The position numbers were made by a program, and so were the translations under genes. Positions 9,934 to 16,693 of a stretch of DNA of 34,216 nt are shown here, in pieces. This DNA is from Bdellovibrionales bacterium (lineage in GTDB: Bacteria; Bdellovibrionota; UBA1018; CAIMNF01), in assembly GCA_947462765.1 (NCBI GenBank), contig CANHQK010000022.1, forward strand, positions 1 to 34,216, in the 5' to 3' direction. The notes beneath the pieces are model-generated. The model had not been told where the DNA came from, did not search any database, and saw only the letters and a list, made by a program, of their open reading frames with translations. The stretch's first letter is position 1. The number at the start of each line of letters is the position of its first letter.

Positions 9934-11040
9934 ATGACGGAACAGTGGTTCCTCGACTTGGACGGTGTCCGGTCAGGGCCCTATCAAACACCCGAAGTCC
10001 TGAGTCTGATCGCTGAAGGAGAGGTTCTTCCTCATCATCGTATTTCCCGTGCGCTGAAGGACTCCTCCTGGGTGACCATTCTCGATTGGCGCCTCGAACA
10101 AGCCCGTCACACCCCGCCCCCCGAGGTCCGTCCGGTTCCGCCACCTCCCGCACCCGAGGTGAGTCCCTTTGAGCTCAAAGTCGAACCCGCTCAAGCCGAA
10201 CCGACCCCTGAGCCCCTTCCGACGCCCCCGGCGCCCCCTGCTCCACCCCCTCTTACCCTCGAACCTGTCGAGCGGACCTTGAAGTTAGAACCGAGTACAA
10301 AAGAAACCGAAACTGAAGCCGAACCGGCGCAGGCTTCTGTGCCCCCTCCCACTTCCACCAAGCGGGATCCGACGGCAGAGCTGTTTGATATCATCCAGAC
10401 CAGCAAACAGAAGCGGGAAATCCGACAGCAACATCAAGCACAGGCGGAGTCGATCAGAGATCAAACTTCTTCCCAGGAGAACAGTCTGATCAAAGTCGTT
10501 TTAATTGGCGCCGGACTCGCCCTGATTGGCTTCTCGATCGGGCAGCTTTTCCAACAGTCCGCACCCCCTCCGGTGGAGACCAAAACATCCAAAGAGACGC
10601 CTGCACCCCCTGTGGCAAACGCAAACGCCAGTGCCACTCCGGCTGAATCGGGCCAAATCCTGGATCGATCGACTGAAAAAATGACCATCAAAGCAGTGGT
10701 TCAGGGAACGCCGAAACCGACCAACAAGACGTCTCCGAAAAGTGCCCAAGTCACGGTTCCCTCTCCGAGTGAAGAGCCCCGCGAGTCCGATCGGGAGCTC
10801 CAGGAGCTCAAGGACCTGAAAAAAGAACTCCAGGAACTGAAGGCGATGAAGGACCAGTTGCGGGACAACACCGCAGTGGAAGAATTCGAGGATGAGACCA
10901 GGGGAGCCTATCCATCAGAAAACTCTCCAGCATTTCCCGAACCTGAGACCATTTCTCCAGGAGGCCAAGCGGTTGACGGGAGTGGTCGCAAATACCGCAT
11001 GCCGCCAAACGCCTCTCCCCCGCCTGATAGCTATTACTGA
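9934..11040 (+). CDS. GYF_2 (DUF4339)-domain single-pass membrane protein
   Basis: Residues 1-55 fit the GYF_2/DUF4339 fold: EQWFLDLDGVRSGPYQTPEV with the GPY core, then the downstream Trp in DSSWVTILDW. GYF-type domains bind proline-rich peptides. A Pro/Glu-rich stretch follows (about 59-140), then a polar helical region and one hydrophobic helix at about 184-205 (LIKVVLIGAGLALIGFSIGQL). A second low-complexity region comes next, then a heptad-like coiled-coil candidate (ELQELKDLKKELQELKAMKD, about residues 288-308). Positive charges before the helix suggest the GYF domain faces the cytoplasm. The protein carries its own proline-rich segments, so self-binding is possible. Role unknown. Confidence 0.85.
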   Translation: MTEQWFLDLDGVRSGPYQTPEVLSLIAEGEVLPHHRISRALKDSSWVTILDWRLEQARHTPPPEVRPVPPPPAPEVSPFELKVEPAQAEPTPEPLPTPPAPPAPPPLTLEPVERTLKLEPSTKETETEAEPAQASVPPPTSTKRDPTAELFDIIQTSKQKREIRQQHQAQAESIRDQTSSQENSLIKVVLIGAGLALIGFSIGQLFQQSAPPPVETKTSKETPAPPVANANASATPAESGQILDRSTEKMTIKAVVQGTPKPTNKTSPKSAQVTVPSPSEEPRESDRELQELKDLKKELQELKAMKDQLRDNTAVEEFEDETRGAYPSENSPAFPEPETISPGGQAVDGSGRKYRMPPNASPPPDSYY

Positions 11041-11684: not shown

Positions 11685-12769
11685 ACGCCACCTTTCCTGC
11701 CGCACCCGAACTGATTGAGTGGCACGCTCCCAGGCTCGGACCGCTTCTCGATCGCTTTGAAAGAGATCAGGCACTCCACACCACCCTATTGTTCACCGGT
11801 GTGGAAGGGGTCGGAAAAAAGAGCCTTGCCCTGCATTTCATCCATTTGTTGTTTTGCGATCGCTCGATCTTCGCGACCGTCGAGGAGCCTGAGGATTCGC
11901 TATTCGGCGCTCCGCTCGAAGAGACCCCCAGAACACGCGTCGCATGCGGTGAATGCGGATCCTGCATCCGGGCCTCCCGGGGACAATGGCTTGATCTGAT
12001 CTGGATCGAGCCGGAGACGGACGAGGAAGGCAAACGACTCGGCACCCATAAGATCAAGCCATTCAGAGACCTCAAGGAAAAGCTGGGCCTGGGACCTGCC
12101 GAAGAGCCGTTCCGGGTGGTGGTGATCGCCGATGCCGATCGGATGAATCAGGAGTCCGCCAATTCCATCTTGAAGGTTCTCGAGGAACCCCCGAAAAACT
12201 GGCTCTTTATCCTCACCGCATCGGACTCTTCCCGACTCCTGCCCACCATCCTTTCGAGATGCATGGAAATCAAGTTCAGCCCTCTCGATCCGGAGCGGAT
12301 TTTTTCAATTCTGAAGCGGGACCCGTCGAGTGAATTCGCCTCACGTCGGGCAAAAGTCGCCTCCCGAGCAGCGATGGGGAGCATCACCCGCGCTAAAAGT
12401 TGCCTCGAAGAAGAAACTTGGGAGCTCAGAGATCGGCTGATCGGTCTCCTGTCCAACCCTGCTGCCGAGTGGATGCGCCTCATTGAGTCGATCTCCACCG
12501 GCCAAGCGCGCCTCAATCTCACCCTCGACCTGATGGAAACACTTCTCATGGACCTGCTCTCCCATCGCATCAAGGGTGATGCTCATGTTTGGATCCATGA
12601 AGACCAGAAAGAACCTCTCATCGAGATCGCCGATCGTCTCGGCTGGGACTCCACGAGGCTGATCCGGACTCTGGAGAGCATCGCTGAGCGAAGAAGACAT
12701 ACGGGCCTCACGCTGAATGCCAAACTGCTGGCACAGGAAATCCTCGCACCTTGGATGGAGCGCCCATGA
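11681..12769 (+). CDS. holB: DNA polymerase III delta' subunit (HolB-like)
   Basis: A clamp-loader AAA+ protein of 362 residues. It has a Walker A-like GVEGVGKKSLA, a zinc-module Cys cluster (CGECGSC, with an earlier FCD), the DADRMNQESANSILKVLEEPP segment and the sensor/arginine-finger SRC in LPTILSRCMEIKF. The delta' subunit works with tau/gamma and delta to load the beta clamp. The GTG start overlaps the tmk stop as GTGA, and tmk-holB adjacency is common in bacteria. Its own stop overlaps the start of the first ABC ATPase gene as ATGA. The C-terminal third is divergent, as usual. Confidence 0.92.
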   Translation: MNATFPAAPELIEWHAPRLGPLLDRFERDQALHTTLLFTGVEGVGKKSLALHFIHLLFCDRSIFATVEEPEDSLFGAPLEETPRTRVACGECGSCIRASRGQWLDLIWIEPETDEEGKRLGTHKIKPFRDLKEKLGLGPAEEPFRVVVIADADRMNQESANSILKVLEEPPKNWLFILTASDSSRLLPTILSRCMEIKFSPLDPERIFSILKRDPSSEFASRRAKVASRAAMGSITRAKSCLEEETWELRDRLIGLLSNPAAEWMRLIESISTGQARLNLTLDLMETLLMDLLSHRIKGDAHVWIHEDQKEPLIEIADRLGWDSTRLIRTLESIAERRRHTGLTLNAKLLAQEILAPWMERP

Positions 12770-13476
12770 TCCGGCTCGAGACCGTGAACGTCTCGTTCAA
12801 GGGACGAACCATCCTCGAGAATGTAGACCTGGAAGTCACCCGGGGAGAAGCTGTCGGGATCATCGGTCCTTCCGGTTCTGGAAAAAGCGTGATCCTGAAA
12901 ACGATTGCGGGATTGATCAAGCCCGAATCGGGGACTGTCACGGTGGAATCGGAAAAAGTGAGCATGCTCTTCCAGAAGAATGCGCTCTTCGATTCGTTTA
13001 CGCTCCTGCAAAACCTCCTGCTTCCCCTGTCAGAAACCCTTGGAATCACAGGCACCGAAGCGGAGACCCGATCCCTCTCGATGTTGAAAGCGGTCGGTCT
13101 CGATCATGCCGCCCACCTCCATCCTGACGAGATCTCAGGAGGCATGCAAAAACGCCTCGGGATCGCTCGGGCCCTGATCATTGAGCCCGAGGTCATCCTT
13201 TACGACGAACCGACCGCGGGCCTCGATCCCATCACTTCGAAGTCGATCGCTGACCTGATGATCACTCTTCACAGAACCAATCGCACGACTCTGGTCATGG
13301 TCACCAATGACCTGCAGCGCGCTTACCAGGTAGCCGACCGGATCGGATTCTGTCATGGAAAAAGGCTTGAGATGTTCGGGGGGCCGGAACAGGTCAAATC
13401 CTCACAACACACTGAGCTGAAACGCTTCATCTACGCCAACGCCCTCCTCGGGAACACAGAGGAGATCGACACGTGA
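12766..13476 (+). CDS. MlaF-like ABC transporter ATPase 1 (canonical signature, H-loop His replaced by Asn)
   Basis: A 236-residue ABC ATPase of the MCE/Mla type. Walker A GPSGSGKS (34-41), Q-loop FQKNALFDSFT (Q70), signature ISGGMQKR (123-130), Walker B VILYDEPTAGLDP with Glu148. The H-loop, normally a His in a T/S-H-D motif, reads VTNDL: Asn181 at 13306-13308. The ATG at 12766 overlaps the holB stop (ATGA), and homology begins right there, so the ATG at 12751 is rejected. It should pair with the second ATPase encoded next. The transporter moves lipids between membranes, probably phospholipid, inferred from family. Confidence 0.92.
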   Translation: MIRLETVNVSFKGRTILENVDLEVTRGEAVGIIGPSGSGKSVILKTIAGLIKPESGTVTVESEKVSMLFQKNALFDSFTLLQNLLLPLSETLGITGTEAETRSLSMLKAVGLDHAAHLHPDEISGGMQKRLGIARALIIEPEVILYDEPTAGLDPITSKSIADLMITLHRTNRTTLVMVTNDLQRAYQVADRIGFCHGKRLEMFGGPEQVKSSQHTELKRFIYANALLGNTEEIDT

Positions 13477-14267
13477 GCATCCGTTTCGAAGACGTGCACA
13501 AGGCTTTCGGGCAAAAAAAAGTCCTCGACGGAGTGAGTTTCGAGGCGGGCAAGGGCGAGGTCCTCTTCATTCTCGGGAAGTCCGGCATGGGCAAGTCAGT
13601 CACACTGAAACACATCATCGGTGTACTGGAGCCCGATCAGGGTAGAATCTTCGTGGACCAGTTCGAGGTGAGCGCATTATTCACCGGTGAGAGCCGGCAT
13701 TTGCTACCGAAAGTGCGCCAGCGATGCGGGATGGTATTCCAGCATCCCGCCCTACTGGATTCACTGAGCAATTACGACAATATCGCATTCGGGCTCAGGA
13801 CACCCCAGTATTCGGAAAAGATCGGCCGGAGCCTGAGTGAGGAAGAAGTCGACAAGATCGTCCGTGAGAAACTAGCCCTCGTTCACCTGGATCCGGAGAT
13901 CCTCTCGCTCTATCCGGGCGAAGTCTCGTACGGAGTCCAAAAACGGGTCTCCATGGCTCGCACCCTCGCTCCGGAACCGGATTACCTTCTGTTCGACGAG
14001 CCGACCACCGGCCTCGATCCTCTCAGCACGAGCTCCATCAATGCCTTGATCTCGGAGCTGTCTAAAAAACTGAAAGTCACCAGCATCATCGTCTCACATG
14101 ACATGGCCTGCGCACTGTCCATCGCCGACCGGATCCTGTTTCTCGATCAAGGAAAAGTCATCCTGATTGCGAACCCGCGAGAGGTTGTCAAAAGCGAACT
14201 GCCTCTCGTGAAGGAATTCTTCGAGGAAACTCTCTCGCTGTTGCCGCCCGGCTGGAGCCCTGCATGA
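13473..14267 (+). CDS. MlaF-like ABC transporter ATPase 2 (H-loop intact, degenerate signature)
   Basis: A 264-residue ABC ATPase. Walker A GKSGMGKS, Q-loop FQHPALLDSLS, Walker B YLLFDEPTTGLDP with the catalytic Glu, and H-loop His209 in IIVSHDM. The signature, normally LSGGM in this family, reads VSYGV (13923-13937): the first Gly is Tyr153, while Ser152 and Gly154 remain. The GTG start overlaps the previous stop (GTGA) and the end overlaps the first permease start (ATGA). Its defect complements that of ATPase 1, implying an obligate heterodimer with one normal and one degenerate ATP site. Confidence 0.92.
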   Translation: MSIRFEDVHKAFGQKKVLDGVSFEAGKGEVLFILGKSGMGKSVTLKHIIGVLEPDQGRIFVDQFEVSALFTGESRHLLPKVRQRCGMVFQHPALLDSLSNYDNIAFGLRTPQYSEKIGRSLSEEEVDKIVREKLALVHLDPEILSLYPGEVSYGVQKRVSMARTLAPEPDYLLFDEPTTGLDPLSTSSINALISELSKKLKVTSIIVSHDMACALSIADRILFLDQGKVILIANPREVVKSELPLVKEFFEETLSLLPPGWSPA

Positions 14268-15076
14268 AAACACTGCTGAACATGGCCGCAGGCGTGCTTC
14301 AAGAATTCGGCGGAGCAGTGATATTTTTTCTCCGGATCATCCGCACCTGGCGGAACAGCGGTGGTTATCGCCGCCCGGTCATCCAGCAGATCGCCGAGGT
14401 TTCCACCCGGACGATGAGCACGGTGATCTTCGCAGGAGTATTCGTTGGTGCAATCCTCGTTTTGCAGTTCGATCTCATGCTCAGGAGATTCGATGCACAG
14501 GCCTTGCTCGGGGGCCTCAACACATCGGCCACCATCCGTGAAGTCGGCCCCTTGATCATCTCATTCCTGCTGGCAGGCAAGGTCGGAGCCTACACCACTG
14601 CTGAACTCGCCAACATGAGGGTCACCGAGCAAATCGATGCCATCGAGAGTCTCGGCACGGATCCGATCCGATACCTGATTGTTCCGCGCTTTTTTGGTGT
14701 GATTCTTTCCTCGATCATCCTTCTGGCCATCGGTCTTTCGGTATCGATCCTGGGTGCCCTCCTGGTGGCCTTGACCATGAGCGGAATGAACCTGCACCAG
14801 TATCTTGCCTCGATTCCGCGGTTTGCAGGTCCCTGGACCCTCTTTGAAGGGCTGGTCCGGTCGACCATTTTCAGCACGATTGTGGCAACCATCTCGACCT
14901 ACAAGGGCTTCACCGCCAGCGGGGGGGCTCGTGGAGTCGGGCGGGCGGTCACCGAATCCGCGATCTATATCAATATCTATATCGTTTTGGGAAATGCCAT
15001 TTCGAGTCCGTTGCTGGAATGGACCCATGATTTCACTTTCTTTGTGGTCGGGATCATCGGGAGGGCTCTACCATGA
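14264..15076 (+). CDS. MlaE/YrbE-like ABC permease 1
   Basis: A 270-residue inner-membrane protein with the MlaE permease signature: EVGPLIISFLLAGKVGA, then TAELANMRVTEQIDAIESLG, TDPIRYLIVPR and the late GGARGVGRAVTESAI. Several hydrophobic helices follow an amphipathic N-terminal segment. It forms the membrane core of an MCE lipid transporter. This copy keeps the LGxDPxxYLxxPR cytoplasmic motif that contacts the ATPase in known complexes. Start and stop both overlap neighbours by ATGA, which suggests fixed stoichiometry with the ATPases and the second permease. Confidence 0.94.
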   Translation: MKTLLNMAAGVLQEFGGAVIFFLRIIRTWRNSGGYRRPVIQQIAEVSTRTMSTVIFAGVFVGAILVLQFDLMLRRFDAQALLGGLNTSATIREVGPLIISFLLAGKVGAYTTAELANMRVTEQIDAIESLGTDPIRYLIVPRFFGVILSSIILLAIGLSVSILGALLVALTMSGMNLHQYLASIPRFAGPWTLFEGLVRSTIFSTIVATISTYKGFTASGGARGVGRAVTESAIYINIYIVLGNAISSPLLEWTHDFTFFVVGIIGRALP

Positions 15077-15840
15077 ACATGGATTCGGCCCACCGGAGAC
15101 ACCTGAGGGCACTCTACATCTCACTGGACTTGTTGCAAAAACTCTTCCGACAGGTCTCCCGGGGACCCCATCGCCGAAATGAAGTCATCCAGGCCATGGA
15201 CTCAATCGGTATCGGGAGTCTTCCGATCATCTCGATTGCAACCGGATTCACCGGCCTGGTCATGACGAGCGAGATCGCTTGGCACATGGACTTCGCACTC
15301 TCCAACGTCTCGATGATTCCGGGATTCACAGGTCAGTTCGTGCTGAGGGAGCTCGGAATCGCCGTGCCGGCCCTCCTGATCGTATCGAAGGTGGGAGCGT
15401 CCATGACGGCCGAGCTCGCGAGCATGAAAATCACCGAGCAACTCGATGCGTTCCGTCTGCTCCGGATCGACGTCGTTTCCTATCATATTTTTCCGAGATG
15501 GGTGGCCTGTATCATCTCCACGGTTTGTCTCACCATGATTTCAATCGCGATCACGCTGTTGATCGCCATGTTCACAGCGGTTACGAAATACCATTTCAAC
15601 TCGGACGAATACCTGAACACTCTCGCCCAATTCATTTCCTCAATGGACCTCTTCTGCGCCCTGACCAAGGCGGCGATTTTCGGAATGATCATCCCCCCGA
15701 TTTCATCGGCTTATGGTTTGATTTGCGGAGGCGGAGCGCAAGGGGTCGGACAGGCCACCACGGATGCTGTGGTCACAGCCACTCTGGCTGTCATCACTCT
15801 GGACTTTGTCCTCACGGCGATTTTTACTGCCCTACTCTAG
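15073..15840 (+). CDS. MlaE/YrbE-like ABC permease 2 (diverged)
   Basis: A 255-residue second permease. It shares the family core (RELGIAVPALLIVSKVGASM, TAELASMKITEQLDAF) and the late GGGAQGVGQATTDAVV, but the ATPase-facing motif is altered: LGxDP is LRIDV in LLRIDVVSYHIFPR. It is only distantly similar to permease 1, so this is an old duplication kept as a heterodimer rather than a recent copy. Mycobacterial Mce systems also use two YrbE permeases, but with a single ATPase. The start overlaps permease 1 (ATGA); the MCE gene begins 25 nt after its stop. Confidence 0.93.
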   Translation: MNMDSAHRRHLRALYISLDLLQKLFRQVSRGPHRRNEVIQAMDSIGIGSLPIISIATGFTGLVMTSEIAWHMDFALSNVSMIPGFTGQFVLRELGIAVPALLIVSKVGASMTAELASMKITEQLDAFRLLRIDVVSYHIFPRWVACIISTVCLTMISIAITLLIAMFTAVTKYHFNSDEYLNTLAQFISSMDLFCALTKAAIFGMIIPPISSAYGLICGGGAQGVGQATTDAVVTATLAVITLDFVLTAIFTALL

Positions 15841-15865: not shown

Positions 15866-16693
15866 ATGAAGTGGACCAATGAACAGAAAGTCGGAGCTCT
15901 GGTGACCGGAACAGTGGTCATTGCGATCGGATTCGCGTGGCTGCTCGGATTCAAGAATCCGTTCACGGACCAGAACTATTTTTATGTCACTTACAATTTC
16001 GCCGGAGGAATCGATCTCGGCTCGCATGTCCGCCTCTCCGGGATCAAGGTCGGAAAAGTGGAGGAAATCCAGTTTTTCGCCCCAGCTCCGAACGAAACCG
16101 TTTCCAACAAGGAGCCGGGTAGCGCCGATCCGGGTTCCAATTTCGCACTCACTCCGGTCCGCCTCAAGATCTCGGTGAAAAAGGCCGCACTGCCCGGTAT
16201 TCGCAAGAATTCCCGATTCTATGTGAACCTGGCGGGTCTGATCGGTGAGCGTTACATCGAGATCACCCCCGGTACCATCGATGCCCCCCAGCTGCTTCCC
16301 GGAGATGTCATCGCAGGTGTTGATCCTCCGCGGATCGATCAGCTCATCTCCCAGAGTTTCAATCTCGCAGGGAAGATCCAGGATCTCATCGAACAGAACA
16401 AGGGGGACATCACTCGGTCAATCGAACTCCTGTACAAGTTAAGCGCCAACCTGAACCGGACACTCGAAAAGATCGATCAGAGCAAGATCCTCTCGCATGA
16501 CCTGGCCCAATTGATCACCAACCTGATGGAAGTGACTCAGGACATCCGCGAGGTCACCCGTCACACCCGCTCTCCCGAGGGTCAAAAAACGCTCAAGATG
16601 CTTCATGATGTCCTCTGGAGACTCGAGCCACTCGACTCCGAACGGATCCGCGCTTTTCTGCAAAAAGAAGGCGTGAGAGTCAAGATTTTCTGA
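15866..16693 (+). CDS. MCE-domain (MlaD-like) membrane-anchored lipid-binding protein
   Basis: A 275-residue protein. Residues about 9-28 are an N-terminal membrane anchor (VGALVTGTVVIAIGFAWLLG). A single MCE domain follows at about 38-150 with the typical NFAGGIDLGSHVRLSGIKVG and AGLIGERYIEITPG. Between strands it has an insertion (about 70-97, Pro/Asn/Ser-rich). The C-terminal 120 residues are predicted helical (LISQSFNLAGKIQDLIEQNK onwards), longer than in E. coli MlaD (183 residues). MCE proteins form hexameric rings in the periplasm that carry lipid to or from the permease. GGGAG lies 5 nt before the ATG. No MlaA, MlaB or MlaC gene is in the window. Confidence 0.93.
   Translation: MKWTNEQKVGALVTGTVVIAIGFAWLLGFKNPFTDQNYFYVTYNFAGGIDLGSHVRLSGIKVGKVEEIQFFAPAPNETVSNKEPGSADPGSNFALTPVRLKISVKKAALPGIRKNSRFYVNLAGLIGERYIEITPGTIDAPQLLPGDVIAGVDPPRIDQLISQSFNLAGKIQDLIEQNKGDITRSIELLYKLSANLNRTLEKIDQSKILSHDLAQLITNLMEVTQDIREVTRHTRSPEGQKTLKMLHDVLWRLEPLDSERIRAFLQKEGVRVKIF

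Follow-up and report, generated by a model that had tools for sequence, protein, structure and literature searches.

Complementary motif defects point to an asymmetric, heterodimeric ATPase pair in an MCE transporter of Bdellovibrionota

Introduction

The contig CANHQK010000022.1 of a Bdellovibrionales bacterium (assembly GCA_947462765.1) carries an operon for a predicted MCE transporter with two adjacent genes for ATPases of the ATP-binding cassette (ABC) type, here called A1 and A2. The window analysed is this entire contig of 34,216 nucleotides (C22), which belongs to a draft genome of 2.3 Mb that is 91% complete. Each ATPase departs from the consensus in a different motif, which raises the question of whether A1 and A2 act as one asymmetric pair with a single hydrolytic ATP site, act as separate homodimers, or include one copy that is becoming a pseudogene. 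An initial annotation of the sequence had favoured the asymmetric pair and had attributed the pattern to selection, not decay. Here, the motifs of both ATPases were read in the window, across the phylum and in two further phyla, and were compared with those of MCE operons with a single ATPase.

Results

The A1 gene (12766..13476, + strand; ATG at 12766, stop at 13474-13476) and the A2 gene (13473..14267, + strand; GTG at 13473, stop at 14265-14267) both match Pfam ABC_tran and encode nucleotide-binding domains (NBDs) of the MlaF/MceG type. In A1, the Walker A motif (GPSGSGKS, 12865-12888), the signature (ISGGM, 13132..13146), the Q-loop and the D-loop are intact, and Walker B (VILYDE, 13192-13209) contains the catalytic Glu. 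The H-loop (VTND, 13300-13311) carries Asn181 (13306..13308) where His is expected. In A2, Walker A (GKSGMGKS, 13575-13598), Walker B with its Glu (YLLFDE, 13983-14000), the Q-loop, the D-loop and the H-loop (VSHD, 14091-14102; His209 at 14097..14099) are intact, and the signature is degenerate (VSYGV, 13923..13937), with Tyr in place of the first Gly of SGG. Both open reading frames (ORFs), their motif states and all coordinates given by the initial annotation were confirmed. In a closed A1:A2 dimer, Walker A/B and His209 of A2 would be completed by the A1 signature ISGGM to form a canonical, hydrolysing site, and Walker A/B and Asn181 of A1 would face the A2 signature VSYGV in a degenerate site.

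The occurrence of this arrangement in the phylum was then assessed. A2 was searched against the genomes of 58 relatives and an A2 profile against 144 genomes of the phylum, 165 different genomes altogether. A2-orthologue loci were read in 85 genomes, and both ATPases were readable in 84. A further check of 20 lower-ranked loci for exceptions added four pairs. Of the remaining 74 genomes, a part contributed loci that were read, so more divergent pairs may exist. Because the counts rest on the matches listed, the number of pairs is at least 88. The same division of defects as in the window, in which both would fall in one composite site and leave the other canonical, was found in 88/88 readable pairs (84 plus the four added). 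In each pair, exactly one ATPase has SGG and has lost the Walker B Glu and/or the H-loop His, and its partner has a broken signature and keeps both Glu and His. Thus, as in asymmetric ABC transporters, core and signature defects lie in different subunits and would meet in one site. The initial annotation had suggested looking for co-occurrence of the two defects and for homologous pairs with motifs in random combinations; the core defect accompanied loss of the partner's signature in all 88 pairs, and random combinations were found in none of them.

The SGG-bearing ATPase is the upstream gene in 84/84 pairs checked for order. Among these 84, its Walker B position is Glu in 38, Asp in 45 and Ser in 1, and its H-loop position is Asn in 65, Ser in 14, His in 3 and Thr in 2, none having both Glu and His. 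The corresponding residues of the four added pairs are Asp and Ser (G105), Glu and Ser (G087), Asp and Gly (G081), and Glu and Ser (G101). Overall, the A1 H-loop is not His in 85/88 pairs, and the remaining three lack the catalytic Glu instead. This Glu is lost in 48/88 (47 Asp, 1 Ser) and kept in the window, which means that many relatives carry a more degenerate site than the one seen here. The A2 signature reads SYG in 66 of the 84 pairs, SFG in 13, and SHG, SFS, SFA, SYV and GFS once each. With SHS (G105), SFG (G087 and G081) and SLG (G101) from the added pairs, this gives SYG 66 times, SFG 15 times and seven other forms once each, and A2 has both Glu and His in 88/88. In Bdellovibrionota, 82/82 readable A1 and 85/85 A2 sequences retain the Lys of Walker A and the Gln of the Q-loop, and the D-loop DP is present in 84/84 A1 sequences.

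Four loci (L180, L184, L171 and L177) have A2-type signatures that are eroded further (SFST, SYVA, SFAV and GFSL, respectively), with Glu and His still intact. Absence of A1 was considered for G144, G152 and G099 and rejected, as A1 sits 1.8-4.0 kb upstream in these genomes with the same motif states. In G023 the contig begins at A2, inside the operon, hence one ATPase is readable; in G033 A1 is present and A2 is cut by the contig end; and in G061 an A1-type ATPase (Glu kept, His replaced by Ser) was found together with a run of N over the A2-type signature, which was left unread. Chance or misreading of motifs was rejected, because coordinates and alignments agree and the pattern recurs in 88/88 pairs, and so was a quirk of one genus.

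The pattern reaches beyond the case of the window to Myxococcota and, possibly independently, to Acidobacteriota. Myxococcota-titled loci from a contig scan showed a related operon with the order A'-E-E-B'-D. Among 77 Myxococcota genomes searched, 61 had a match at E 1e-60 and 41 had a B' match of at least 264 bits, 39 of which were read. The B' signature is GDG (31), GPS (5), SDG (2) or GPG (1), and Glu and His are kept in 39/39. A' lies upstream in the same locus in 25/39 and has SGG together with Asp and His (19), Glu and Ser (5) or Asp and Ser (1) at the core positions. For the 14 genomes that lack an adjacent A', the best match to it lies elsewhere and has SGG with Asp and His (8) or Glu and Ser (6), core-defective in 14/14; judged by similarity, these matches would be the partners of B'. 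The complementarity rule holds in 39/39 Myxococcota genomes, through residues other than those of Bdellovibrionota. One Myxococcota locus (L267, G185:C74:91000-100000) contains an 809-codon frame in which two MlaF-like NBDs are fused (LSGGM/DEP/His and ISAGQ/DEP/His), and no MlaE or MCE match was found in its 9 kb.

In Acidobacteriota, an ATPase with LSTG or LSMG for LSGG was present in 37 of 80 contig-scan loci (among L068-L128), and 20 of those 37 genomes were searched with the other ATPase seen in L121 (A''; loci L195-L214). A'' was found in 20/20 genomes, adjoining an MlaE gene, with SGG in all 20 and Ser replacing Glu in 19, and both Glu and His are present in 20/20 LSTG-type ATPases. A 21st match in the LSTG-type set, an unrelated ABC protein in L082, was set aside. 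Both ATPases stand in the same read locus only in L121; otherwise the partner is elsewhere in the genome. Three lone A-type ATPases (L334, G135:C77; L335, G133:C23; L336, G118:C1) have LSGGM or ISGGM but Asp in Walker B, with altered H-loop regions (SSKM, THSM and THSL) and no MlaE or MCE match within the 6.4-8 kb read. Each may be one member of a further asymmetric pair whose genes lie apart.

MCE operons with one ATPase served as the control. Loci had been retrieved by A2 similarity, not by motif state, and the same searches also returned intact single ATPases. From a start set of 42 loci, each with a single NBD, a single MlaE and an MCE protein, nine were removed in which short flanks hid the partner, namely seven Myxococcota B' loci and two Acidobacteriota A'' loci (one with Ser for Glu, the other, in G181, intact). 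SGG, Glu and His are intact in 50/50 single-ATPase MCE operons (33 + 2 + 15). The 20 lower-ranked loci comprise the four pairs, which conform to the rule without exception, and 16 single ATPases, none of them defective.

Constraint was analysed in trees of 107 A (SGG) and 124 B (broken signature) ATPases from Bdellovibrionota and Myxococcota, labelled by signature and with the trait residues masked. Glu and His are both kept in 124/124 B and in 0/107 A ATPases. The parsimony minimum of residue changes is 9 for the A Glu position, 8 for the A H-loop and 16 for the B signature, whereas Glu and His of B are constant. That the A signature is constant follows in part from how the label is defined; since the labels match gene order and, without long branches, clades, this constancy is informative. 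Constraint tracks the predicted composite site, in that the elements of the A2-core/A1-signature site are frozen and those of the other site are free. Such site-wise constraint is expected of a heterodimer in which one site works, and not of two homodimers.

In a 93-row masked tree without long branches, A and B of Bdellovibrionota formed separate clades (100/99 and 100/100). The A ATPases of Bdellovibrionota and Myxococcota came together (97/78; 97% of bootstrap trees), as did the B ATPases (97/72; 98% of bootstrap trees), and both joint groups were separate from the canonical MlaF types as well as from the two Acidobacteriota subunits. Because A groups with A and B with B, a single duplication probably underlies the pairs of Bdellovibrionota and Myxococcota. 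Approximately unbiased (AU) tests in which the Acidobacteriota subunits were joined did not reject a single A clade (p 0.171) or a single B clade (p 0.188), and the Acidobacteriota pair possibly had an origin of its own. For the permeases of Bdellovibrionota and Myxococcota, the second ones group (100/97) and the first ones do not (2 changes).

Both ATPase genes are under purifying selection. Seven genomes of the genus were compared by the Nei-Gojobori ratio of nonsynonymous to synonymous rates (dN/dS), which lies at 0.029-0.100 in A1 (finite dS in 6/21 pairs) and at 0.017-0.067 in A2 (8/21 pairs); it was estimable in 14/42 within-genus comparisons, the rest being saturated at silent sites, and because dS is near saturation the values are rough. 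A1 diverges faster than A2, with a nonsynonymous proportion (pN) of about 0.19 versus 0.12 between the window and L004-L007. Selection instead of decay, as the initial annotation had proposed, is borne out by these ratios and by the repeated change of elements of the predicted degenerate site but not of Glu and His of the predicted canonical site.

The family identity of the two ATPases was examined with fold models, whose predicted local distance difference test (pLDDT) scores were 88.0 for A1 and 88.7 for A2. For both, Foldseek ranked MceG (8fed_H) first, with MlaF (6xbd) at rank 3 for A1 and rank 4 for A2; the models are of monomers, bear on family identity and are silent on dimerisation. 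With MlaE-family permeases, an MCE-domain protein and ATPases structurally nearest to MceG and MlaF, the predicted system is an MCE transporter. The two ATPases did not reach the NCBIfam MlaF equivalog cut-off (133.3 and 143.1 versus 441 bits). MlaA (PF04333) and MlaC (PF05494) gave no match in the 91% complete draft genome, and both were detected in the E. coli control. Because MlaA and MlaC are absent from the profile matches and the MlaF scores are low, membership of an Mla pathway is not supported here. No STAS/MlaB-like gene was seen among the annotated ORFs of the window.

Three MCE proteins (C22, C39 and C61) and four MlaE proteins (two of them in C22) are encoded in the same genome. 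C39:6311-7346 holds both MlaE and MCE genes and represents a third MCE system. An MlaF-type ATPase gene at C3:92101-92826 has no nearby permease or MCE gene and may serve the C39 system.

Genes around the pair follow the order polynucleotide phosphorylase, an unassigned reading frame, thymidylate kinase, DNA polymerase III delta', A1, A2, E1, E2, D and signal peptidase, and the Pfam matches of the five operon genes are, in order, ABC_tran, ABC_tran, MlaE, MlaE and MlaD. E1 (14264..15076, + strand; PF02405, 192.8 bits) and E2 (15073..15840, + strand; PF02405, 175.8 bits) are MlaE-family permeases. D (15866..16693, + strand; PF02470, 46.8 bits) is a single-MCE-domain protein of the MlaD/Mce family, encoded by the sole MCE gene seen in the operon. 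Four successive 4-base overlaps, at delta'/A1 (ATGA), A1/A2 (GTGA), A2/E1 (ATGA) and E1/E2 (ATGA), suggest translational coupling along delta'/A1/A2/E1/E2. A 368-codon ORF with proline-rich stretches (window positions 9934-11040) is without a Pfam match at 1e-5.

Discussion

The distribution of motifs makes it highly probable that A1 and A2 pair as an obligate heterodimer, in which one ATP site hydrolyses and the other is degenerate, under an E1/E2 permease with a ring of D. The pair would sit beneath a heterodimeric MlaE-type permease E1/E2, which would feed or drain the ring of the MCE protein D. Because the Walker A Lys and Q-loop are kept, the degenerate site probably still binds ATP, with hydrolysis that would be slow or nil. 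One ATP would be spent per transport cycle, and the idle site would serve as a clamp that holds both ATPases together between cycles, as proposed for exporters in the available part of PMC12038006. The operon, the states of the motifs with their distribution, and the selection acting on them are observations. We infer the 1:1 assembly, the single active site, the clamp role, and lipid transport and its direction from these sequence patterns, and lipid is suggested as the substrate by family membership.

Several observations weigh against such a heterodimer. The binding of A1 to A2 is presumed, the fold models being monomeric. Two further MlaF-type ATPases, on C61 and C3, are possible alternative partners in the same genome, the one on C61 belonging to an intact single-ATPase MCE operon. 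Since A1 of the window retains the Walker B Glu, some residual hydrolysis may take place at the degenerate site. The genomes are kin to each other, so the 88 pairs do not count as independent events. A of Bdellovibrionota is not one clade (3 changes) in a quick 136-row tree that retained long branches. Finally, in G181 A'' retains both core residues, Glu and His, and faces a partner with a degenerate signature, the sole exception (1/20).

Among the alternatives, the one that survives best is that A1 and A2 are each homodimeric, or each pair with another MlaF-type ATPase, with the odd residues tolerated and both sites hydrolysing. Non-canonical residues sometimes leave activity intact, and the ATPases on C61 and C3 could act as such partners. 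One ATPase, MceG, is common to mycobacterial MCE systems in the available part of PMC10517005. However, a homodimer would put its own core and its own signature under equal constraint; instead, 107/107 SGG ATPases are core-defective and 124/124 ATPases with broken signatures are intact. Moreover, single-ATPase operons are without such changes (50/50), and the A1 and A2 genes overlap. We therefore consider this explanation very improbable. Even less credible is that A1 is a regulatory pseudo-ATPase outside the NBD dimer and that A2 uses some other signature donor. Some ABC proteins do have non-transport roles, but the upstream ATPase keeps SGG, the element needed by an NBD-dimer partner, in 84/84 pairs, A1 is encoded within the operon, and two permeases mean two docking sites. 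Least probable of all is decay after duplication, with one copy of an ordinary MlaF pair becoming a pseudogene: the ATPase genes are duplicated and A1 is diverging faster, but this was rejected on the evidence of selection and site-wise constraint, as dN/dS is low for both genes wherever estimable, A1 keeps its Walker A Lys and Q-loop (82/82 readable) and D-loop DP (84/84), and the pair persists over a phylum and, counting related subunits, over two.

A wider proposal, to which we give slightly less than even credence, is that the heterodimeric motor with one active site is an old and recurrent MCE design. One ancestral A/B duplication would lie behind the pairs of Bdellovibrionota and Myxococcota, with the same idle site broken again by different residues, and a second, independent origin would account for Acidobacteriota, in which the ATPases are encoded apart. 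An MCE ring with an asymmetric permease and motor would then be a strictly directional lipid pump that uses one ATP per cycle.

Compared with known MCE systems, MlaFEDB of E. coli and relatives has one permease gene, and the operon described here has two. MlaFEDB (MlaF PDB 6xbd, 6xgy) shares with it the NBD, permease and MCE families. In the available text of PMC7367683, the MlaF signature ends in Met, as does that of A1, and MlaF is a homodimer, whereas the motif distribution here argues against a homodimer. Mycobacterial Mce1 (YrbE1A/YrbE1B, MceG and Mce1A-F; PDB 8fed) likewise has two different MlaE/YrbE permeases, and its MceG is the best structural match of the A1 and A2 models. The accessible parts of PMC9882608 (a preprint) and PMC10517005 describe a YrbE1A/B permease heterodimer with MceG as homodimer. 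Mce1 has a single ATPase and six MCE genes, unlike the two ATPases and one MCE gene found here. The initial annotation was therefore right to describe known MlaF and MceG as homodimers, on the text of PMC7367683 and PMC9882608. It knew of no MCE transporter of this kind, and no described heterodimeric or degenerate-site MCE ATPase was found in the available text of the open-licence PubMed Central (PMC) literature, with subscription papers and bioRxiv outside that scope. The asymmetric heterodimeric ATPase, well known in other transporters, is apparently new to the MCE class, which is a lead and not a proof of novelty.

An asymmetric MCE motor, kept across phyla through different residues, would provide a transporter class of unrelated type for studying the purpose of an idle site. 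It is also relevant to the energetics and direction of MCE transport, because in a heterodimer every ATPase and every permease is separately accessible to mutation and labelling, an option that homodimeric MlaF and MceG lack. The importers OppD/F, NrtC/D and EcfA1/A2 resemble A1/A2 in having two different NBDs per transporter, but they have other permease families and are not known to be MCE-linked. In TM287/288, TmrAB, TAP, CFTR and MsRv1273c/72c, as in A1 and A2, the defects are collected in one composite site. CFTR has Ser at the H-loop of NBD1 and LSHGH in NBD2, the latter altered at the same signature position as VSYGV. These heterodimeric ABC exporters carry transmembrane domain and NBD in one chain and belong to other transmembrane families. 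The MsRv1273c/72c pair has Glu and His in its consensus site and Asp and Gln at these positions of its degenerate site, according to the available part of PMC12038006. With separate ATPase genes and MlaE-family permeases, the system described here would work like these exporters and is not one of them.

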